NCBI RefSeq assembly: GCF_028863665.1
Contig: NZ_JARBFX010000006.1
Coordinates: forward strand, 310,001 to 374,000
Length of the DNA stretch: 64,000 nucleotides
Origin: Aquabacter sediminis
Lineage (GTDB): Bacteria; Pseudomonadota; Alphaproteobacteria; Rhizobiales; Xanthobacteraceae
Reading direction: 5' to 3'
Shown: in pieces, positions 11,384 through 21,563 of the stretch
How the letters are laid out: each line of letters starts with the position of its first letter
How positions within the stretch are numbered: the first letter of the stretch is position 1
Made by a program: the position numbers and the translations under genes
The notes under the pieces: generated by a model
The model's input: the letters and a program-made list of their open reading frames with translations, nothing else
What the model was told of the DNA's origin: nothing
The model's database searches: none

Positions 11384-11519
11384 CTAAACCACGGGAAGCA
11401 TTTCGCGACTTTCCGAACCGCCGAAAACCAGAGGGGCGGAGCATGTCATTCCATCGGAAGGATGCTGCGCGCCGGCATGCGCGGCAGCAGCAGTGTCGTG
11501 CCGCGTTTGGGGCCAGGGC

Positions 11520-12005
11520 ATGCCCGCTCCGGTAACGTTGACGGTGAACGGCACCGAGCATGCGTTCGCCTTGCCGGGCGAAACCCCTCTTCTTTACGTG
11601 CTGCGCAACGACCTCAGACTGAACGGCCCGAAGTTCGGCTGCGGCCTCGGCGAATGCGGGGCTTGCACGGTGCTGATGGATGGCATCGCCACCCGAGCCT
11701 GCGTCACCCGCCTCGCCAGCGCCGAGGGCCGGCAGATCGTCACCCTGGAAGGCCTCGGCTCGGCCGAGGCGCCCCATCCGGTTCAGGCGGCCTTTATCGC
11801 CGCGCAGGCGGCCCAGTGCGGCTATTGCCTCAACGGCATGATCATGACCACCGTCGCCTTTCTCGCCCGCACCCCACACCCCACAGAGACCCAGGCGCGC
11901 GAGGCGCTGCGGCACAATCTGTGCCGGTGCGGCACCCACGTGGAGATCCTCAAGGCCGTCCTCCTGGCGGCGGAAAGCCTTGCCGACGCAGGAACCGCGC
12001 CATGA
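11520..12005 (+). CDS. nicA: [2Fe-2S] subunit of nicotinate dehydrogenase-like molybdenum hydroxylase
   Basis: A 161-residue small subunit of the xanthine dehydrogenase family with two [2Fe-2S] clusters. The plant-ferredoxin-type cluster is C41, C46, C49, C61 (FGCGLGECGACTVLMDG). The second, helical cluster is C100, C103, C135, C137 (CGYCLNG, LCRCGTH). It passes electrons from the molybdenum centre. No signal peptide is seen, so it is cytoplasmic. The start at 11520 removes nine residues with no similarity; a GTG at 11493 is also in frame. It overlaps the large-subunit gene by 4 bp (ATGA). Size and partner match NicA of Pseudomonas putida nicotinate hydroxylase. Other N-heterocycle hydroxylases share this form, so substrate specificity rests on the neighbouring enamidase. 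Confidence 0.85.
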   Translation: MPAPVTLTVNGTEHAFALPGETPLLYVLRNDLRLNGPKFGCGLGECGACTVLMDGIATRACVTRLASAEGRQIVTLEGLGSAEAPHPVQAAFIAAQAAQCGYCLNGMIMTTVAFLARTPHPTETQAREALRHNLCRCGTHVEILKAVLLAAESLADAGTAP

Positions 12006-15000
12006 ACGGCGCCGTAACCGAGCCCCTCGCCGACCCCAAGGACCTGCTCTCCCGCCCGGGCACCCTGGCGGTGCTTCGCCCGGCGCAGGTGGTTGGCGGG
12101 CTGGTGCGCACAGCGGCGCCGGCCGAGGGCGCCCTCGACCTCTTCCTGTTCCTGGACGAGACGGGTCGCATCCTCGCTTTCAACGGCCATGTGGATCTCG
12201 GCACCGGCATCCGCACCGCGCTCGCCCAGATGGTGGCCGAAGAACTCGACGTGCCGTTGGATCGCGTCACCATGGTGCTCGGCCATACCGGAGGCACGCC
12301 CAACCAGGGCGCGACCATCGCCAGCGACACCATCCAGGTCTCCGCCGCGCCGCTGCGCCGCGCCGCTGCGCAGGCGCGCCATCACCTGGTCGCGCTGGCC
12401 GCGCAGGCGCTGGACCTGCCGCCGGAGGACCTCACTGTCACCGAGGGCATCGTCCATCCCAAGGCCGGCGGAAATGCGGGCCTGTCCTACGCCGCGCTGC
12501 TTTCAGGCCGCACCGAACGGCTGATGCTGGCGGATGCGGTGGCGCTGAAGCCCGTCTCGGAGCACCGCATTATCGGCCAGCGGGTGCCCCGCGTGGACAT
12601 CCCCGCCAAGGCGCTCGGTCAATTTACTTATGTGCATGACGTGCGCGTGCCCGGAATGCTCCATGGGCGCGTGGTGCGCCCACCTTATGCGGGGCTCGAC
12701 GCGGGCGACTTCATCGGCACCAGCCTCCTGAAGGTAGAGGAGGCCTCCATCGCCCACATTCCCGGTGTGGTGGCGGTGGTCACCATGGGTGACTTCATCG
12801 GCGTGGTCGCCGAACGGGAAGAACAGGCCGCCCAAGCCGCCCGCGAACTGGTGGTGCACTGGAAGCCCACCCCGCCTTTGCCGGACCTCTCAGACGTGAC
12901 GCAGGCGCTGCGCGCCAATCCCAGCACACCCCGCCTGCTCCTCGACCGGGGCGACGTGGACACCGCCCGCGCCGCCGCTGCCCGGCCCATGGACCGGACC
13001 TATGCCTGGCCCTACCAGATGCATGCCTCCATCGGCCCGTCGTGCGCCGTGGCGCACGTGGGCACGCACGGTGCCACCATCTGGGCGGGCACGCAGAACC
13101 CCTATCCGCTGCGTGCCGACATCGCGCATCTCCTGGGCCTGCCCGAACCTGACATCGAGATCATCCGCTTCGAGGCGGCCGGCTGCTACGGGCGCAATTG
13201 CGCCGACGACGTGGCGGCCGATGCGGCCTTGCTTTCCCGCGCGGTGGGGCGGCCGGTGCGGGTGCAGCTCACCCGCGAGCAAGAACATGCCTGGGAGCCC
13301 AAGGGCGCGGCCCAGCTCATGGAGGTGAGCGGCGGGCTGAATGCGGACGGAACGCCGGCCGCCTACGACTTCTCCACCCGCTACCCTTCCAACGCGGCCG
13401 TCACCTTGGCGCTGCTGCTCACCGGTCGTGTCCCCGCGAACAATCCCGTCTTCGAGATGGGCGACCGCACCGCCATCCCGCCCTATGACTACGGCCATAT
13501 GCGCGTGGTGGTCCATGACATGGCGCCCATCGTGCGGGCAGCCTGGCTGCGGGGCGTCTCGGCGCTGCCCAATTCCTTCGCCCATGAAAGCTATATCGAC
13601 GAACTGGCCGCCGAGGCTGGCGTCGATCCGGTGGAATATCGCCTGCGCCACCTGCACGACCCGCGCGCCGTCGACCTGGTGAAGGAGGTGGCGGACCGCG
13701 CCGGCTGGGTCCATCGCACCGGGCCACGCCGCGAGGCGGTGGAGGGTGACATCGTGCGCGGGCAAGGCTTTGCCTATGCGCTCTATGTGCATTCCAAGTT
13801 TCCCGGCTACGGCGCCGCCTGGTCCGCCTGGGTGGCGGACGTGGAGGTGAACACCACCACCGGCGATGTGGCCGTGCGCAAGGTGACGGTGGGCCAGGAT
13901 TCCGGGCTCATGATCAACCCGGCGGGCATCGAGCACCAGATCCACGGCAATGTCATCCAGTCCACCAGCCGGGCGCTGAAGGAAGAGGTGGCCTTCGGCG
14001 AGACGGCGGTGACCAGCCGGGAATGGGGCGCCTATCCCATCCTCACCTTCCCCGAGGTACCGGTCATCAATGTGGTGCTGATGCCACGGCCGGACGACCC
14101 GCCGCTCGGGAGCGGGGAATCCGCCTCGGTCCCCTCCGCCGCCGCCATCGCCAATGCCATCTTCGATGCCACTGGCGTGCGCCTGCGCGAGCCGCCCTTC
14201 ACACCGGACAAGGTGCGCGCCGCGCTTGCGGGCGAGCCGCCTCCGAAGCCCACCCGGCCGGAAAAGGCCAAGCGCAAATGGTTCGCGCTGGCCGGCGCGA
14301 CGCTGGCCGGCGCCCTCGGCATGGCCGCCATCGCCCTGCCCCTGCGCGGTACCATCGCCCCCATCACGCCCCCCGATCCGGCCTCCTTCTCCGCCGACAT
14401 GATCGCGCGTGGCCGGCAATTGGCGGCGGTGGGCGCCTGCGCGGTCTGCCACACCGTGCCCGGCGGGGTGGAGAATGCCGGCGGGCGGGCGCTGGAGACG
14501 CCGTTCGGCACGGTCTATTCCACCAATCTCACGCCCGACCCGGAGACGGGCCTCGGCCGCTGGTCCTATGCCGCCTTCGAGCGGGCCATGCGCGAAGGCA
14601 TCTCGCGGGATGGGCGGCATCTCTACCCCGCCTTCCCCTACCCCTCCTTCACCAAGACCTCGGACACAGACCTCCAAGCCCTCTACGCCTATTTCATGTC
14701 GCAGCCGGCGGTGAGTGCGCCGACGCCTGAGGCGCGCATGATGGCGCCGCTCAACATCCGCCCGCTCATGGCGGGATGGAACGCGCTGTTCCTGAAGCCC
14801 GGCCAATTGGAAGCGGACCCGACGCAAGCCCCCCAATGGAATCGCGGGCGCTATCTGGTGGAGGGCCTCGGTCATTGCGGCGCCTGCCACACGCCGCGCA
14901 ACGCACTGGGCGCCGAGAAAACGGGCGCCGCGCACCTGTCCGGCGGATGGGCGGATGGCTGGGAGGCACCCGCTCTCACAAGCCTGTCCGCCGCGCCCAT

Positions 15001-15565
15001 TCCTTGGACGCAGGACGAGCTCTTCTCCTATCTGCGCACGGGCTTCTCCCGTTTCCACGGCACAGCGGCCGGCCCCATGGCGCCGGTGGTGCAGGAATTG
15101 GCTCACCTTCCCGACGCCGACATCCGCGCCATGGCCACCTATCTTTCCTCCTTCTCCGGCCCGGCGGCGGCCGAGCCGGCGGCGCGGGCGGCGGAGCTGG
15201 AAGCGCAGGCGCAGGCCCGTCTTCGCCCCCTCGATACGCTGGGCGGCAAGCTCTATGAGGGCGCCTGCGCCGCCTGCCATGCCCAGGAGGGGCCGACCTT
15301 GTTCGGCGTGCGCCCGGCGCTCTCCCTCAACACCAATGTGCACGCGGCCCGACCGGACAATCTCATCCGGGTGATCCTCGACGGCATCCCCTCCCCCGCC
15401 GCCCGCGATCTGGGCGACATGCCCGCCTTCCGCGACGCGCTGGACGACACCCAGGTAGCGGCGCTCGCCCGCTATATCCGGGCCACCTTCGCCCCCGAGG
15501 CGCCCGCCTGGGAGGGCCTGGAGGCGCGGGTGGGGGAAGTGCGGGCCATGAAGACAGCCCACTGA
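12002..15565 (+). CDS. nicB: Molybdopterin-cytochrome c fusion subunit of nicotinate dehydrogenase-like hydroxylase
   Basis: A 1187-residue fusion. Residues about 30-745 are the molybdopterin-binding subunit of the xanthine dehydrogenase family, with the catalytic Glu in GSGESASVPSAAAIANAI. A transmembrane segment follows (KWFALAGATLAGALGM, about 759-782). Then come three cytochrome c domains with heme motifs CAVCH (about 814), CGACH (about 958) and CAACH (about 1089). This is the NicB layout: hydroxylation of nicotinate to 6-hydroxynicotinate with water, electrons leaving through c-type cytochromes to the respiratory chain instead of NAD. The frame stays open upstream to 11087, but the ATG overlapping the nicA stop is clearly the start. 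The nicotinate substrate is inferred from context. Confidence 0.85.
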   Translation: MNGAVTEPLADPKDLLSRPGTLAVLRPAQVVGGLVRTAAPAEGALDLFLFLDETGRILAFNGHVDLGTGIRTALAQMVAEELDVPLDRVTMVLGHTGGTPNQGATIASDTIQVSAAPLRRAAAQARHHLVALAAQALDLPPEDLTVTEGIVHPKAGGNAGLSYAALLSGRTERLMLADAVALKPVSEHRIIGQRVPRVDIPAKALGQFTYVHDVRVPGMLHGRVVRPPYAGLDAGDFIGTSLLKVEEASIAHIPGVVAVVTMGDFIGVVAEREEQAAQAARELVVHWKPTPPLPDLSDVTQALRANPSTPRLLLDRGDVDTARAAAARPMDRTYAWPYQMHASIGPSCAVAHVGTHGATIWAGTQNPYPLRADIAHLLGLPEPDIEIIRFEAAGCYGRNCADDVAADAALLSRAVGRPVRVQLTREQEHAWEPKGAAQLMEVSGGLNADGTPAAYDFSTRYPSNAAVTLALLLTGRVPANNPVFEMGDRTAIPPYDYGHMRVVVHDMAPIVRAAWLRGVSALPNSFAHESYIDELAAEAGVDPVEYRLRHLHDPRAVDLVKEVADRAGWVHRTGPRREAVEGDIVRGQGFAYALYVHSKFPGYGAAWSAWVADVEVNTTTGDVAVRKVTVGQDSGLMINPAGIEHQIHGNVIQSTSRALKEEVAFGETAVTSREWGAYPILTFPEVPVINVVLMPRPDDPPLGSGESASVPSAAAIANAIFDATGVRLREPPFTPDKVRAALAGEPPPKPTRPEKAKRKWFALAGATLAGALGMAAIALPLRGTIAPITPPDPASFSADMIARGRQLAAVGACAVCHTVPGGVENAGGRALETPFGTVYSTNLTPDPETGLGRWSYAAFERAMREGISRDGRHLYPAFPYPSFTKTSDTDLQALYAYFMSQPAVSAPTPEARMMAPLNIRPLMAGWNALFLKPGQLEADPTQAPQWNRGRYLVEGLGHCGACHTPRNALGAEKTGAAHLSGGWADGWEAPALTSLSAAPIPWTQDELFSYLRTGFSRFHGTAAGPMAPVVQELAHLPDADIRAMATYLSSFSGPAAAEPAARAAELEAQAQARLRPLDTLGGKLYEGACAACHAQEGPTLFGVRPALSLNTNVHAARPDNLIRVILDGIPSPAARDLGDMPAFRDALDDTQVAALARYIRATFAPEAPAWEGLEARVGEVRAMKTAH

Positions 15566-15619: not shown

Positions 15620-15659
15620 TTGACAAGGCGGCGCGCATCCATTTTCATTAGTATACAAA
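15620..15659 (+). promoter_or_regulatory. Promoter with pathway operator (site B, before fpr)
   Basis: TTGACA (15620-15625) with TTTCAT 17 bases on, then TTAGTATACAAA (15648-15659), the best match (12 of 12) to the TTNGTATACNAA palindrome. The 13-base string ATTTTCATTAGTA is identical to that at site D, at the same distance from TTGACA. Confidence 0.6.
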
Positions 15660-15706
15660 CAATTTTTCACACTACCGCCACGGCCCCGAACCTGCCCGGA
15701 AGTCCC

Positions 15707-16480
15707 ATGAGCAATTTGATGGAAGAGCGCGTCCTGAGCGTGCGCCACTGGACCGACCGCCTGTTCAGCTTCACCACCACGCGGGACCCCAGCTTCCGCT
15801 TCCGCAATGGCGAGTTCACCATGATCGGCCTGAAGGTGGATGGCCGGCCGCTGCTGCGCGCCTATTCGGTGGTCAGTCCCAATTACGAGGACACGCTGGA
15901 ATTCTTCTCCATCAAGGTGCCCGACGGCCCTCTGACCTCGCGCCTCCAGCATGTGGTGGAGGGCGATCCCATCATCATCGGCCGAAAAGCCACCGGCACG
16001 CTGGTGCTGGACAATCTGAAACCCGGCCGCACCCTCTATCTGCTCGGCACCGGCACCGGCCTTGCGCCCTTTCTGGCCCTCATCCGCGATCCCGAGACCT
16101 ATGAGCGGTTCGAGAAGATCGTGCTGGTGCATGGCTGCCGGGAGGTGGCGGAGCTGGCCTATGGGGAGGAGATCGTCAGCGGCCTGGCTTCCCACGAACT
16201 GCTCGGAGAAGAGGTCTCGGACAAGCTCATCTATTACCCCACCGTCACCCGCGAGCCCTTCCGCAATCGCGGCCGCATCACCGACCTGATCGAAAGCGGC
16301 AAGCTGTTCGAGGATGTGGGCCTGCCCATGCTGGACAAGGCCACGGACCGGGTGATGCTGTGCGGCTCGCCGGAAATGATGGTGCAGCTGCGCCACATGA
16401 TGGAGGCGCGCGGCTTCGAGGAAGGCAGCAACGGGGAAGCCGGCGACTTCGTCCTGGAAAAGGCCTTCGCCGAGCGCTGA
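15707..16480 (+). CDS. fpr: Ferredoxin--NADP+ reductase
   Basis: A 257-residue bacterial-type ferredoxin/flavodoxin-NADP+ reductase. The FAD-binding motif R-A-Y-S-V (LLRAYSVVSP, about 49-53), the diphosphate loop (GPLTSRLQHVVEGD), the NADP-binding GTGTGLAPFLALI and the C-terminal VMLCGSPEMM are all visible; the C terminus ends in Glu-Arg as in subclass I Fpr. The ATG has GGAAG upstream; an in-frame extension to 15620 would cover the promoter. It sits inside the nicotinate-type cluster with its own operator, so its likely job is to reduce the ferredoxin that drives the 6-hydroxynicotinate reductase. No ferredoxin gene is found in the window. Confidence 0.9.
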   Translation: MSNLMEERVLSVRHWTDRLFSFTTTRDPSFRFRNGEFTMIGLKVDGRPLLRAYSVVSPNYEDTLEFFSIKVPDGPLTSRLQHVVEGDPIIIGRKATGTLVLDNLKPGRTLYLLGTGTGLAPFLALIRDPETYERFEKIVLVHGCREVAELAYGEEIVSGLASHELLGEEVSDKLIYYPTVTREPFRNRGRITDLIESGKLFEDVGLPMLDKATDRVMLCGSPEMMVQLRHMMEARGFEEGSNGEAGDFVLEKAFAER

Positions 16481-16580: not shown

Positions 16581-17780
16581 ATGGCCCATGATGCCCCGGG
16601 CGGTCCCACCGGCCCCACCAAGCTCGTCATCCGCAATATCGGCCTTCTCCTGTCCGGTGATCTGGAAAGGCCGATCCTCGATGCGGACACCATCGTCGCC
16701 GAGAATGGCCGTATCACCGCCATCGGGCGCCTGAAGGACGTGGACACCGAGGGCGCCACCACCACGGTGGATGCCAATGGCGCGGCGGTCACCCCCGGCC
16801 TCATCGACAGCCATGTGCACCCCGTGGCCGGCGACTGGACGCCCCGTCAGCAGCAGCTCAACTGGATCGACAGCTTCCTCCATGGCGGCGTCACCACCAT
16901 GATCTCAGCGGGCGAGGTGCATTATCCCGGCCGCCCCCGCGATGTCATCGGGGTGAAGGCCCTGGCCATCACCGCCCAGCGCACCTTCACCGCCTTCCGG
17001 CCCGGCGGCGTGAAGATCCATGCGGGGGCACCCGTCATCGAGCATGAGATGGTGGAGGAAGACTTCAAGGAACTGGCCGCCGCCGGCGTGAAGCTCTTGG
17101 GCGAAGTGGGCCTCGGCGGCGTCAAGGACGGCCCCACCGCCCGCAAGATGGTGGGATGGGCCCGCAAATACGGCATCCAGTCCACCATTCACACGGGCGG
17201 CCCTTCCATTCCCGGCTCCGGCCTCATCGACAAGGATGTGGTGCTGGAGGCGGACACCGACGTGGTCGGCCATATCAATGGCGGCCACACCGCGCTGCCC
17301 GACGGGCAGATCCGCTGCATCTGCGAGGGCTGCAAGCGCGGCCTGGAACTGGTGCACAACGGCAATGAGCGCGCCGCGCTCTATACCCTGCGCATCGCGC
17401 GGGAGATGGGTGACCTTCACCGCGTGATCCTCGGGACGGACGCGCCCGCCGGCTCCGGCGTGCAGCCGCTCGGCATCCTGCGCATGGTCTCGCTGCTCTC
17501 CTCCCTCGGCGACCTGCCGGCCGAACAGGCCTTGTGCCTGGCCACCGGCAACACCGCGCGCATGCGGGCGCTGGACTGCGGCATCATTGAGGTGGGTCGC
17601 TCGGCCGACTTCGTCATCATGGACACGGCCCAGCATTCGGCCGGCACCAACCTCCTGGAGAGCATCCAGCTGGGCGACCTGCCGGGCATCGGCATGACCA
17701 TTATCGACGGCATCGTGCGCACGGAACGCTCGCGCAACACGCCGCCGGCGACCCGCGTGCCCTTCCTCGTGAAGGCCTGA
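16581..17780 (+). CDS. Enamidase (1,4,5,6-tetrahydro-6-oxonicotinate hydrolase)
   Basis: A 399-residue amidohydrolase-superfamily metal enzyme. Metal ligands fit the family: HxH in SHVHP (78, 80), a possible bridging Glu175 (GEVGLGG), His204 (IHTGGPS), His231 (GHINGGHTAL) and Asp287 (GTDAPAGSG). Many stretches, such as HGGVTTMISAG, PGRPRD, HTGGPSIPGS, DVVGHINGG, PLGILRM and SRNTPPA, closely resemble what I recall of the Eubacterium barkeri enamidase, which hydrolyses the cyclic enamide to ammonia and 2-formylglutarate. The start has AGGA upstream. This gene is the strongest pointer to nicotinate as the substrate of the cluster. A dihydropyrimidinase-like or other cyclic amidase role is less likely. 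Confidence 0.85.
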   Translation: MAHDAPGGPTGPTKLVIRNIGLLLSGDLERPILDADTIVAENGRITAIGRLKDVDTEGATTTVDANGAAVTPGLIDSHVHPVAGDWTPRQQQLNWIDSFLHGGVTTMISAGEVHYPGRPRDVIGVKALAITAQRTFTAFRPGGVKIHAGAPVIEHEMVEEDFKELAAAGVKLLGEVGLGGVKDGPTARKMVGWARKYGIQSTIHTGGPSIPGSGLIDKDVVLEADTDVVGHINGGHTALPDGQIRCICEGCKRGLELVHNGNERAALYTLRIAREMGDLHRVILGTDAPAGSGVQPLGILRMVSLLSSLGDLPAEQALCLATGNTARMRALDCGIIEVGRSADFVIMDTAQHSAGTNLLESIQLGDLPGIGMTIIDGIVRTERSRNTPPATRVPFLVKA

Positions 17781-17869: not shown

Positions 17870-17909
17870 TTGACACTGCGGCCTATGTTCATTTTCATTA
17901 GTACACATA
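17870..17909 (+). promoter_or_regulatory. Promoter with pathway operator (site D, before hydroxynicotinate reductase)
   Basis: TTGACA (17870-17875), TTTCAT 17 bases on, then TTAGTACACATA (17898-17909), 10 of 12 matches to TTNGTATACNAA. The block ATTTTCATTAGTA (17891-17903) is identical to that at site B, with the same 25-base gap between TTGACA and GTA. Confidence 0.6.
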
Positions 17910-17959: not shown

Positions 17960-19453
17960 ATGCGCGACGACACTGCCCCTGCACCAAGCCCGGCGGACGC
18001 CAAGATCCGCTGCGATGCGTGCCCGGTCATGTGCTACATCAAGCCGGGCATGACGGGCGCCTGCGATCGCTATGCCAACCATGCGGGCGAACTGGTGCGC
18101 GTCGATCCGCACGTGGTGCTGGACCGCACCCTCGCCCAGGGCGGCACGGTGGTGCCCTTCAGCCGGGGCGATGACTGGGACGGCAAGATCCTCTCCAGCC
18201 CGGAGACCTTCGTCACCGCCATCGGCGCCGGCACCACCTATCCCGACTACAAGCCCGCCCCCTTCATCGTCTCCTCCCAGGTGGAGGGAGTGGACATGGT
18301 GACCGTCGTCACCGAGGGCATCTTCAGCTATTGCGGCGTGAAGGTGAAAATCGACACCGATCGGTACCTCGGCCCTGAGCAGGCCACGGTGCGCGCCCAG
18401 GGCGAGGCGGTGGGCCATGTGACCACCAGCGAATACGGCTCCCAGATGCTGTCGCTCGGCGGCGTTCATCACCTCACCGGCGGCGGCAAGAAGGAAGGCC
18501 GTGTCACCTGCGACGCCTTGCTGGACCTGTGCAATGGCAAGGCGGTGGAACTGGCCATCGATGGCGGCTCCACCGTTGTGGTCCAGGCTGGCAAGGCGCC
18601 CATCGTCAACGGTGTGGTGGAAGAACGCATGCGGGTGGGCTGCGGCTCGGCCACCATCGGCATGTTCGCCAAGCAATGGCTCGGCAAGGTGGACGAGGTG
18701 GTGGTGGTGGACGACCACATCACCGGCGTCCTGTCCGAGCACCAGGCCGGCAAGCTGCTGGATATTCCCGACACCGGCATCAAGATGAAGGGGCGCCGCT
18801 CCACCCCCGGCCGCTATTTCCAGGTGGCCGAGCCCGGCACCGGCTGGGGTGGCACCAATCTCACCGATCCTCTCGCCATCATCGGCCCGTTCGATCCCAA
18901 GGTGGCCTGGCCGGGCCTGCGCCTCTTCTTCATCTCCACCACCGGCGAGCACAGCGCCTATTTCGAGCTGGACGAGGCGCTCGTGCCGGTGGAGAAGCCG
19001 CTGCCGCCGGATCTGGCCGCCTCTGCGGAGCGGGTGAAGGAAAATTGCGAGCCGGCTCTGTCCACCGTGCTCTTCATGGCCGGCGCGGGCGGTTCCCTGC
19101 GGGCCGGTGTCACGGAAAACCCGGTGCGCCTCACCAAGTCGGTGAAGGATGCGCTGACCTATGTCACCAGCGGCGGCGCGCCGGTCTATGTCTATCCGGG
19201 CGGCGGCATCACCTTCATGGTGGACGTGACCCGCCTTCCTGAGAACGCCTTCGGCTATGTGCCGACCCCGGCTCTGGTGGCGCCCATCGAATTCACGCTG
19301 AAGCTCTCCGACTATGAGGCCCTCGGCGGCCATATGGCGGAGGTGCGTCCGGTGGAAAGCGTGCGCGGCCATGACGGGCTGCTGCCGCTGGCTCCGCTCC
19401 ACGACAACCCCTGGCCGCTGGCGCCCGAAGGCGCCAAGCGCTCCCACGGGTGA
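17960..19453 (+). CDS. hnr: 6-hydroxynicotinate reductase-like Fe-S protein
   Basis: A 497-residue protein with an N-terminal iron-sulfur motif C18-X2-C21-X3-C25-X9-C35 (KIRCDACPVMCYIKPGMTGA) and five more cysteines (in FSYCGVK, VTCDALLDLCNG, RVGCGSATIG and KENCEP). It has no nucleotide-binding fold I recognise. Position between the enamidase and a UPF0280 gene, plus the cysteines, point to 6-hydroxynicotinate reductase, the E. barkeri enzyme that reduces the pyridone ring to 1,4,5,6-tetrahydro-6-oxonicotinate with ferredoxin and is reported to hold several Fe-S clusters and a covalently bound flavin. GGAG precedes the ATG. I considered a cyanuric-acid/barbiturase-type ring opener and found none of its repeated Ser-Lys motifs. 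Confidence 0.7.
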   Translation: MRDDTAPAPSPADAKIRCDACPVMCYIKPGMTGACDRYANHAGELVRVDPHVVLDRTLAQGGTVVPFSRGDDWDGKILSSPETFVTAIGAGTTYPDYKPAPFIVSSQVEGVDMVTVVTEGIFSYCGVKVKIDTDRYLGPEQATVRAQGEAVGHVTTSEYGSQMLSLGGVHHLTGGGKKEGRVTCDALLDLCNGKAVELAIDGGSTVVVQAGKAPIVNGVVEERMRVGCGSATIGMFAKQWLGKVDEVVVVDDHITGVLSEHQAGKLLDIPDTGIKMKGRRSTPGRYFQVAEPGTGWGGTNLTDPLAIIGPFDPKVAWPGLRLFFISTTGEHSAYFELDEALVPVEKPLPPDLAASAERVKENCEPALSTVLFMAGAGGSLRAGVTENPVRLTKSVKDALTYVTSGGAPVYVYPGGGITFMVDVTRLPENAFGYVPTPALVAPIEFTLKLSDYEALGGHMAEVRPVESVRGHDGLLPLAPLHDNPWPLAPEGAKRSHG

Positions 19454-19457
19454 CACC

Positions 19458-20405
19458 ATGGCCCTCGCCCGCCCCCTCCCCTCCATATCGCGCGCGCCCC
19501 AGGTGGCGCGGCTTGCCGATGGGCGGCGCCTGCATCTGCAGGACGGCCCCATCGACCTCGTGATCGAGGCGGACGGGCCGGCCGGCGTGGTGGAGGCGGC
19601 CTATGCCGCCGCCGCCCGTCGCTTTGCCGGCCTGCTGGACGCATTGTGCGCGGAACTGCCGGCCCTGCGGTCACCCGCCGAACCGGACGCCTCGCCCCTC
19701 CAGGGCACGGTGGCCCGGCGCATGTGGCAGGCGGTGCGGCCCTTCGCCGGCACGCATTTCATCACCCCCATGGCGGCAGTGGCCGGCGCGGTGGCGGAGG
19801 AGGTCTTGGCCGCCATGGTGCGGCCGGGCCTGACCCGCGCCTATGTGAACAATGGCGGCGACATCGCCCTCCATCTGGAGGCGGGCGCGACCTTCACCGT
19901 CGGCCTTGTGGACCGGCCGGACCAGCCGCGCATTGTCGGCACCGCCCTCCTCCAGGCCACCGAGCCGGTGCGCGGCGTGGCCACCAGCGGCTGGCGGGGA
20001 CGCAGCTTCTCGCTGGGCATCGCCGATGCGGTGACCATCCTGGCCTCGACCGCCTCAGGCGCCGATGCGGCGGCCACCATCATCGCCAATGCGGTGGACC
20101 TGCCGGGGCATCCGGGCATCCTGCGGGCGCCCGCGTCTCACCTCCAGCCCGACAGCGACCTGGGCGACCGCCTCGTCACGCGCGCGGTGCCTGAGCTTTC
20201 CTCTGACGAGCGCGCCCGCGCGCTGGAGGCGGGCCTTGCTCGCGCGCAGGACCTCGTCCGCCAGGGCCTCATCCAGGCCGCCGCGCTCCACCTCCAGGGG
20301 GAGAGCGCCGGCACCGACCCTGAGCTGAATTTGAACGCCCCTCTTCCGGCCCTGGCCGGCCATTCCCTCGCGCACCGCCAACAACAAGGGCCGTCCCATG
20401 CCTGA
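19458..20405 (+). CDS. UPF0280 family protein, ApbE-like; candidate flavin transferase
   Basis: A 315-residue UPF0280 member. The core resembles ApbE (FMN transferase): AYVNNGGDIALHL (about 134-146), GVATSGWRGRSFSLGIADAVTIL and the Ala/Asp-rich GADAAATIIANAVD that follows it. The last 40 residues are Pro/Ala-rich and lack similarity. No signal peptide is seen, so it would act in the cytoplasm, unlike periplasmic ApbE. It begins 4 bp after the reductase stop and overlaps the next gene by 8 bp, so it is translationally tied to both. Because the E. barkeri reductase carries covalent flavin, I infer that this protein may attach it. That role is not established for UPF0280. Confidence 0.75.
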   Translation: MALARPLPSISRAPQVARLADGRRLHLQDGPIDLVIEADGPAGVVEAAYAAAARRFAGLLDALCAELPALRSPAEPDASPLQGTVARRMWQAVRPFAGTHFITPMAAVAGAVAEEVLAAMVRPGLTRAYVNNGGDIALHLEAGATFTVGLVDRPDQPRIVGTALLQATEPVRGVATSGWRGRSFSLGIADAVTILASTASGADAAATIIANAVDLPGHPGILRAPASHLQPDSDLGDRLVTRAVPELSSDERARALEAGLARAQDLVRQGLIQAAALHLQGESAGTDPELNLNAPLPALAGHSLAHRQQQGPSHA

Positions 20406-20982
20406 CGTGAAGATCCGCAAGCGCCTGCTCATCCTGGAAGAGACCCTGCACGAAGGCGGGCCAGTGGCCGCCGTGCCGCGCAAGCGCGGCGCCATCCTCA
20501 CCGTGATCGAGAATCCCTTTGCCGGCCGCTATGTGGAAGACATTGCCGGCTTCATGGATGACCTCACTCCGCTGGGCATCGCCATGGCCGGCGACCTCCT
20601 GAAGGCCCTGGGCGGCGACAAGGCGGCGGTGGACGGCTATGGCAAGGGCGCCATCATCGGCGCCGCCGGCGAATTGGAGCATGGCGCGCTGTGGCACGTG
20701 CCCGGCGGCTATGCCATGCGCGAGATCCTGGGCGATGCCAAGGCCATCGTGCCCTCCACCAAGAAAGTGGGCGGTCCCGGCACCCGGCTCGACGTGCCCG
20801 TGACCCATGTGAACGCCTCCTATGTGCGCAGCCATTTCGACGCCATGGAAGTGGGTGTGCCGGATGGCCCCAAGGCCGACGAGATCGTGCTCGTCCTGGT
20901 GATGACCTGCGGCGCGCGGGTTCACGCCCGCGTCGGGGGCCTGGCCGCCGACAAGATCAAGGGAGAGGACGGCCTGCGATGA
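20398..20982 (+). CDS. DUF1185 (AA_synth) family protein, first of tandem pair
   Basis: A 194-residue cytoplasmic protein of the DUF1185 / 'amino acid synthesis' family, whose biochemical function is not established. It shares long blocks with the next gene: KIRK at the start, EETL, VIENPFAGRY (about 35-44), GELEH, YVRSHFDAMEVGVPDGPKADEIV (about 141-163) and IKGEDGLR at the C terminus. It overlaps the UPF0280 gene by 8 bp and the second copy by 4 bp (ATGA), so all are cotranslated. In this operon it may act after ring opening, or form a heteromer with its paralogue. Nothing in the sequence reveals a cofactor site. Confidence 0.8.
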   Translation: MPDVKIRKRLLILEETLHEGGPVAAVPRKRGAILTVIENPFAGRYVEDIAGFMDDLTPLGIAMAGDLLKALGGDKAAVDGYGKGAIIGAAGELEHGALWHVPGGYAMREILGDAKAIVPSTKKVGGPGTRLDVPVTHVNASYVRSHFDAMEVGVPDGPKADEIVLVLVMTCGARVHARVGGLAADKIKGEDGLR

Positions 20983-21563
20983 GCGCGAAGATCCGCAAGA
21001 TCCTGGTGGTGGTGGAAGAAACCCTCACCGAGATGGGTCGCCCCGTACCCCAGCCCGCCAAGCGCGCGGCGGCGGTGGCCGTGATCGAGAACCCCTTTGC
21101 CGGCCGCTATGAGGAGGACCTCTCCCCCCTCATCGCCATGGGCGAGGAACTGGGCGGGCTGCTGGCCGAAAAGGCGGTCGCCGCCCTCGGCATCGCCGGC
21201 CCCGACGCCCAGTCCTACGGCAAGGCGGCCTTGGTGGGCGAGAATGGCGAATTGGAGCACGCCGCCGCCCTCCTCCATCCCAAGATGGGCACGCCCGTGC
21301 GCCAGGTGCTGGGCAAGGGCGCGGCGCTGATCCCCTCCTCCAAGCGCCGGGGCGGGCTTGGTGCCGAGCTGGACATTCCGCTCGGCCACAAGGATGCGGC
21401 TTATGTGCGCAGTCATTTCGACGGCATGCAGGTGAGCGTGCCCGATGCGCCGCGTGCCAACGAGATCGTGGTGGCCGTCGCCGTGACCACGTCCGGCCGC
21501 CCCCTCCCCCGGATCGGGGGATTGAAGGCGGAAGACATCAAAGGAGAGGACGGGTTGCGTTAG
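20979..21563 (+). CDS. DUF1185 (AA_synth) family protein, second of tandem pair
   Basis: A 194-residue paralogue of the preceding protein, same length, roughly half identical by eye, with the same landmark blocks (EETLTEMGRPV, VIENPFAGRYEEDL, GELEHAAALLHPK, AYVRSHFDGMQVSVPD, IKGEDGLR). The start overlaps the stop of the first copy. The frame is open upstream to 20691, but that part is out of phase with the real first gene. Duplication with equal length and conserved ends suggests a hetero-oligomer, not a decaying copy. The function is unknown; the context is an N-heterocycle ring-opening pathway that needs at least one further enzyme after enamidase. Confidence 0.8.
   Translation: MSAKIRKILVVVEETLTEMGRPVPQPAKRAAAVAVIENPFAGRYEEDLSPLIAMGEELGGLLAEKAVAALGIAGPDAQSYGKAALVGENGELEHAAALLHPKMGTPVRQVLGKGAALIPSSKRRGGLGAELDIPLGHKDAAYVRSHFDGMQVSVPDAPRANEIVVAVAVTTSGRPLPRIGGLKAEDIKGEDGLR

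Follow-up and report, generated by a model that had tools for sequence, protein, structure and literature searches.

A UPF0280 protein with a predicted ApbE fold accompanies a putative 6-hydroxynicotinate reductase and may take part in its flavin maturation

A 64,000-nucleotide stretch of the 5.3 Mb genome of Aquabacter sediminis (contig NZ_JARBFX010000006.1, positions 310,001 to 374,000), here called the window, contains an open frame of 497 residues for a putative 6-hydroxynicotinate reductase (HNR; 17960..19453, + strand), followed on the same strand by an open frame of 315 residues for a UPF0280 (COG2122) protein that starts at an ATG at 19458 (19458..20405). The stop codon of the HNR gene ends at 19453 and the UPF0280 gene begins 4 bp later (gap 19454-19457), as a first-pass annotation of this DNA had noted. 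Both genes lie in a nicotinate-type gene cluster with hydroxylase-like genes and an enamidase gene, and such a cluster is common to strain SG-6C, A. caulinodans and other proteobacteria (PMC3511419). The UPF0280 protein is very probably dedicated to HNR, in some accessory or maturation role. That it attaches flavin to HNR, as a dedicated maturation factor, is a more tentative reading to which we give a probability of roughly 0.45.

The membership of the protein in UPF0280/COG2122 is clear from the NCBIfam model NF003322 (427.5 bits, cut-off 290). The Pfam model of ApbE (PF02424) matches residues 106-212 with an E value of 0.00016, at a score (21.7 bits) that lies under its cut-off of 25.6, and it matches 26 of 68 UPF0280 relatives at E <= 0.01. 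When the predicted model of the protein (68 sequences; predicted local distance difference test, pLDDT, 92.7) was compared with known structures, the top match was DVU1097 (2o34, Z 19.8), followed by ApbE, Ftp and FmnB chains (Z 13.4-16.0, root-mean-square deviation 3.0-3.8, 203-222 residues aligned), while the next family after the ApbE group was urate oxidase (Z 7.6). Foldseek also ranked DVU1097 and ApbE chains first, with template-modelling (TM) scores to ApbE that were modest (0.31-0.48, of the model; best E 1.7e-5, TM 0.45). Profile-profile comparisons gave a probability of 95.2 (E 2.5e-8) with four ApbEs and of 91.5 (E 8.8e-7) with 21 ApbEs. The closest PDB sequence was again 2o34 (E 2.4e-9), and a profile search of PDB sequences with the UPF0280 alignment reached 2o34 and no ApbE. 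An ApbE fold is well supported for UPF0280 by these predictions, and the resemblance that structure prediction was expected to reveal is indeed found.

Three motifs, NNGGDIALHL, VATSG and GADAAATIIANA, had been called ApbE-like in the first-pass annotation; all are present, and the family and Pfam matches given above place the likeness beyond chance. As a canonical ApbE reference we used 21 of 25 loci from HNR-carrying genomes, the other four having given no clean motif. All 21 carry the four residues of the ApbE centre, Ser, His, Asp and Thr. In V. cholerae ApbE the centre is Ser241-His257-Asp285, with the His as general base, and Arg262 of FmnB contacts flavin adenine dinucleotide (FAD) (PMC12052999); in E. 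coli Ftp, Asp280 and Thr284 are among the residues that bind the metal (PMC4767422). The NNGGDIALHL loop of UPF0280 (residues 131-140; 19848..19877, + strand) aligns to the G-(D/E) loop of ApbE, and its N131, G133, G134 and D135 are invariant in the 68 sequences. Further along, the segment from VATSG (174-178) to R182 (19977..20003, + strand) brings S177, present in 68/68, into line with the catalytic Ser, and R182 is kept in 67/68. In GADAAATIIANA (residues 201-212; 20058..20093, + strand), D203 (67/68) and T207 (68/68) align with the metal-site Asp and Thr of ApbE, each 21/21 in the reference.

The distribution of the two genes supports a dedicated role. Because the nearest named HNR relatives, among the matches listed, come from Rhodopseudomonas, Chelatococcus, Xanthobacter and Bradyrhizobium, the class and phylum draws were taken as Alphaproteobacteria (289 genomes) and Pseudomonadota (398 genomes); the class, phylum, named-locus and plasmid samples share some genomes. 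In the class draw HNR was found in 44 genomes, and all of these also have UPF0280; one further UPF0280 match, in G143, is a weak relative (29.5 bits) and the only one among 245 genomes without HNR. In 43 of the 44 the two genes are neighbours on a single contig, and the remaining genome (G231) has both at contig ends. In the phylum draw UPF0280 was found in 32 genomes and HNR in the same 32, adjacent in 32/32, a count that leaves out one genome (G616) in which only the N-terminal Cys motif matched, over 36 residues. Co-occurrence had been proposed as a check on a dedicated role, and it holds in every HNR genome of the two draws. Fisher tests gave p values of 2e-51 and 6e-48, which ignore relatedness and come from overlapping draws. 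The strict pairing of HNR and UPF0280 is real in the sampled genomes.

A similar picture was obtained from the named HNR loci, which are the best 80 of at least 587 HNR-encoding stretches and are mostly from Alphaproteobacteria, with 8 from Acidobacteriota. UPF0280 lies inside the locus at 76 of the 80; its distance from HNR is -61 to +291 nt at 75 of them and 1516 nt at the other (L112). At the four others it lies outside the locus, elsewhere in the same genome: about 8 kb off on the same contig (L086), on other contigs (L087 and L104), or in a genome where the contig ends 75 bp past HNR (L115). These gaps are alignment-based; a count based on open reading frames (75 loci, 64 within -100 to +300) was blurred by wrong start choices. 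Over the same loci the identity of matches to the molybdenum gene varies between 24 and 81%, and enamidase is found in the flanks of 37, while UPF0280 stays with HNR, its identity to the window protein being 47-71% versus 67-84% for HNR. On plasmids, all 26 HNR-bearing records carry UPF0280. Since the two hardly ever occur apart in the genomes searched, UPF0280 is probably the dedicated helper of HNR.

Two UPF0280 relatives were seen apart from HNR. The diverged protein of G143 (L128:5982-6776) is without the NGGD motif, and neither HNR nor HcyBio (PF01837), a protein of homocysteine synthesis, was found in that genome. A 27th plasmid record with UPF0280, Hydrogenophaga pBPS33-1 (L122:9123-20864), gave no HNR match; its copies share one protein accession and stand at four places, in repeated blocks with IS1071 transposases.

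The HNR of E. barkeri reportedly (Alhapel et al. in 2006) has a covalent flavin together with one [2Fe-2S] and two [4Fe-4S] clusters. The window HNR gave no Pfam match over cut-off, and no PDB sequence matched it at E values up to 1. Many of the 26 plasmid records name its homologues 6-hydroxynicotinate reductase, and the homologue of a comparable cluster is 42% identical to the E. barkeri enzyme (PMC3511419). An N-terminal CxxCxxxC...C motif (Cys 18, 21, 25 and 35; 18011..18064, + strand), in which the residues are Cys wherever present (44, 44, 45 and 46 of 47 rows), likely binds one [4Fe-4S] cluster, to judge the type by the spacing. Conserved Cys number eight, these four together with 125 (46/47), 184, 228 and 363, and the conserved His are 153, 171, 253 and 261. 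A structure search with the predicted HNR model found no convincing PDB match (best Z 4.6, to the C-terminal barrel of the glycine-cleavage T-protein, residues 125-212), a null that says little because the model is moderate (pLDDT 75). Pfam GCV_T_C also matches HNR weakly, in 42/47 at E <= 0.1, which agrees with that structural likeness. In viral contigs, none of 25 pattern matches to HNR was a relative. The HNR of one single-contig genome (G028; L129:5803-7265) is interrupted by a frameshift and reads as one gene, and a two-subunit form was rejected.

A possible acceptor for flavin was sought in HNR. The segment DHITGVLS (residues 252-259; 18713..18736, + strand) belongs to a pattern, DHITGxx[S/T], that is present in 120/120 HNR sequences; of the 108 distinct ones, 93 have Ser at residue 259 and 15 have Thr. 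It is similar to the published ApbE target motif, D-x-x-[S/T]-G-A-[S/T] (PMC12052999), but is one residue longer and has no Ala. We regard it as a speculative acceptor and a lead only, because D-x-x-[S/T]-G is a short pattern of a common kind whose chance occurrence is likely. The segment GCGSATIG (residues 227-234), in which the first-pass annotation saw a loose likeness to an ApbE target, is present but unlike the published motif, and this candidate was rejected.

The remaining genes of the cluster fit a nicotinate-type pathway. An enamidase, the next pathway step, is encoded upstream of HNR (16581..17780, + strand; PDB 2vun, ENAMIDASE, E 5.5e-112). Further upstream, a [2Fe-2S] protein and a molybdopterin/cytochrome c protein (11493..15565, + strand) resemble nicotinate hydroxylase, with matches to PF01799 and PF00111 and to PF20256, PF02738, PF00034 and PF13442, each over cut-off; the substrate of this enzyme would, from its context, be of the nicotinate type. 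A ferredoxin-NADP reductase-like protein (15620..16480, + strand; NF008178 161.2 bits, under the cut-off of 390) might supply electrons, and its true start is perhaps downstream of the listed TTG. Directly downstream of UPF0280 are two AA_synth genes of unknown function (20398..21563, + strand; PF06684, 231 and 248.3 bits); AA_synth matches occur at 70/80 HNR loci, frequently as a single gene, and the PDB relatives of the second protein, 2qtp and 3byq, carry the name 'uncharacterized'. The cluster also holds a branched-chain-type ABC transporter and a MarR regulator. A 15-mer, ATTTTCATTAGTA[C/T]A, is found at 15641-15655, close to where the ferredoxin-reductase-like gene begins, and at 17891-17905, upstream of HNR. 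These are two matches versus 0.08 expected for a pattern itself derived from this sequence, and a shared operator is possible.

Canonical ApbE was searched for in 41 HNR genomes, the 44 of the class draw minus the three least complete (G064, G071 and G226). It is absent over cut-off in 19 of the 41, including the window genome, where the sole PF02424 match is UPF0280 itself. If an ApbE-type enzyme flavinylates HNR in those 19 genomes, UPF0280 is the only candidate found. We consider flavin transfer to be the best single mechanism for UPF0280. The protein would be a cytoplasmic, ApbE-fold helper dedicated to HNR that matures its flavin cofactor, most likely by moving flavin mononucleotide (FMN) from FAD, the presumed substrate, to a Ser or Thr hydroxyl of HNR, the presumed client.

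Several points weigh against this mechanism, and the first is a real obstacle. The ApbE hairpin that carries the catalytic His (V. cholerae His257), a residue found in every reference ApbE, falls in a gap of UPF0280. From Ser to Asp there are 26 residues in the 66 of 68 UPF0280s where the pattern was found, versus 44 in V. cholerae ApbE by numbering. Some His stands between S177 and D203 in 22/66 UPF0280 relatives, in the best column in 15/68, and the window protein has none there. Similarity of COG2122 to ApbE also apparently stops short of the flavin-binding region (Price et al., PMC5764234). On the client side, neither the published target motif nor its shorter form [S/T]-G-A-[S/T] occurs in any of the 120 HNR sequences (108 distinct). 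The full motif is likewise absent from all 13 proteins encoded in and next to the operon, the rest of the genome being unsearched for clients, and the AA_synth and other operon proteins were rejected as canonical ApbE targets. Canonical ApbE over cut-off is present in 22 of the 41 HNR genomes. We know of no covalent flavin in the enzyme served by the homocysteine-linked UPF0280 proteins, so the family need not be flavin-specific. The argument would also weaken if E. barkeri has no UPF0280 gene by hnr. In the retrieved portions of open-licence papers, no link between HNR and UPF0280 was found.

The dedicated flavin transferase proposed in the first-pass annotation therefore stands in part: the fold, the co-occurrence, the Ser, Asp and Thr and the genomes without canonical ApbE speak for it, and the deleted His and the missing target motif speak against it. 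Because the general-base His of ApbE is deleted in UPF0280, the base for the transfer would need to come from elsewhere, perhaps from Arg182 of UPF0280 or from a conserved HNR residue. Arg182 stands at Ser +5, as Arg262 of FmnB does from Ser257, a parallel by numbering alone, and His253 and His261 of HNR flank Ser/Thr259.

In the sections of the sources that we draw on (PMC5764234, PMC12068725, PMC9431491), no biochemical activity is demonstrated for UPF0280/COG2122, and the family is mostly known through the genetics of homocysteine synthesis. There, COG2122 is required alongside DUF39 and a NIL/ferredoxin protein, and it was proposed to act in persulfide modification (PMC5764234); MA1715 of M. 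acetivorans is termed a sulfur trafficking protein (PMC12068725), and one COG2122 protein of a methanogen is described with a Cys-rich motif (PMC9431491). Perhaps UPF0280 is an assembly factor of HNR for a task other than covalent flavin attachment, either the insertion or trafficking of iron-sulfur clusters or sulfur, or the loading of flavin without a bond. We hold this to be rather unlikely, and it is the alternative that survives best. In Acidobacteriota, the phylum of locus L089, HcyBio was found in 8/267 genomes and a COG2122 gene adjoins it at 8/8 of these loci, downstream and on the same strand in 7, and both clients, HNR and HcyBio, appear to be iron-sulfur-dependent. HcyBio itself was not found in the window genome at E <= 1, in any of the 289 class genomes at E <= 1e-4, or in the 8 HNR-carrying Acidobacteriota. 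A joint alignment of 68 HNR-linked and 8 HcyBio-linked UPF0280s showed that both branches keep the GGD, Ser, G.S.S.G.AD and AD...T core. At position 175 the HNR-linked branch has Ala in 68/68 versus Cys in 7/8 of the HcyBio-linked branch, at position 182 Arg in 67/68 versus His in 7/8, and it has Gly30 for Thr and Thr103 for Gly. There is no conserved Cys in the HNR-linked proteins (best column 35/68), and 2/68 have no Cys at all, so a sulfur relay is unlikely in this branch. The Cys and HcyBio points carry no weight against flavin loading without a bond.

HNR was also considered as a distant homologue of HcyBio (DUF39). Comparison by hhalign gave no support (probability 0.2 and E 0.36 in local mode, 0.5 and E 0.055 in global mode), which is weak evidence because both alignments are shallow. 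With two partners, HNR and HcyBio, that have no demonstrable kinship, UPF0280 looks like a shared helper fold. A broader and speculative proposal, which we think improbable, is that UPF0280/COG2122 forms a second class of ApbE-fold maturation enzymes without the catalytic His, each branch serving one iron-sulfur enzyme. The HNR branch would add FMN in the cytoplasm at DHITGxx[S/T] near residue 259, with the base coming from the client, and the homocysteine branch would have kept Cys175 and His182 for another modification.

It is more improbable still that UPF0280 is no maturation factor but acts in the pathway itself, as an HNR subunit or as an enzyme in its own right, with nucleotide or flavin binding that serves catalysis. 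Constant adjacency and one-to-one presence would fit a subunit equally well, and the frequent AA_synth proteins show that other pathway parts of unknown function exist. However, in a few genomes the UPF0280 gene lies apart from HNR (L086, L087, L104 and L112), the homocysteine-synthesis relatives work with a different enzyme, and the higher conservation of HNR than of UPF0280 would be unusual, although not impossible, for two catalytic subunits. Least probable of all is self-flavinylation of HNR, with an 8-alpha link formed at a conserved Cys, His or Tyr and UPF0280 aiding only in folding or being unrelated. HNR does have the conserved His and Cys listed above and no ApbE target motif, but this reading leaves the strict co-occurrence with an ApbE-fold protein unexplained and no known self-flavinylating fold was recognised in HNR, though in a model of moderate quality.

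HNR is a second near-obligate partner, in aerobic bacteria, and offers a clean system for learning the function of UPF0280/COG2122. The system could explain how HNR gains its covalent flavin, and it would reveal whether flavin transfer by an ApbE fold is possible when the His regarded as its general base is missing.

Among known systems, the ApbE, Ftp and FmnB proteins (PF02424; PDB 1vrm, 4ig1, 7esa and 6nxi) share with UPF0280 the fold, the G-(D/E) loop, the Ser and the metal-site Asp and Thr, whereas UPF0280 scores under the Pfam cut-off, has no catalytic His hairpin and has in HNR a proposed client without the target motif. The cytoplasmic ApbE of Klebsiella that acts on fumarate reductase sets a precedent for flavin transfer in the cytoplasm to a soluble client; unlike UPF0280 it is a canonical ApbE, and fumarate reductase serves as the model protein for the canonical target motif (PMC12052999). 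The closest protein to the window UPF0280, by both sequence and structure, is DVU1097 (2o34) of the UPF0280/COG2122/DUF375 family. The partner of the HNR-linked proteins is HNR and not HcyBio as in their homocysteine-linked relatives, and the homocysteine module (HcyBio/DUF39, NIL-ferredoxin and COG2122) is like the HNR locus in placing a COG2122 gene beside an iron-sulfur-dependent enzyme.

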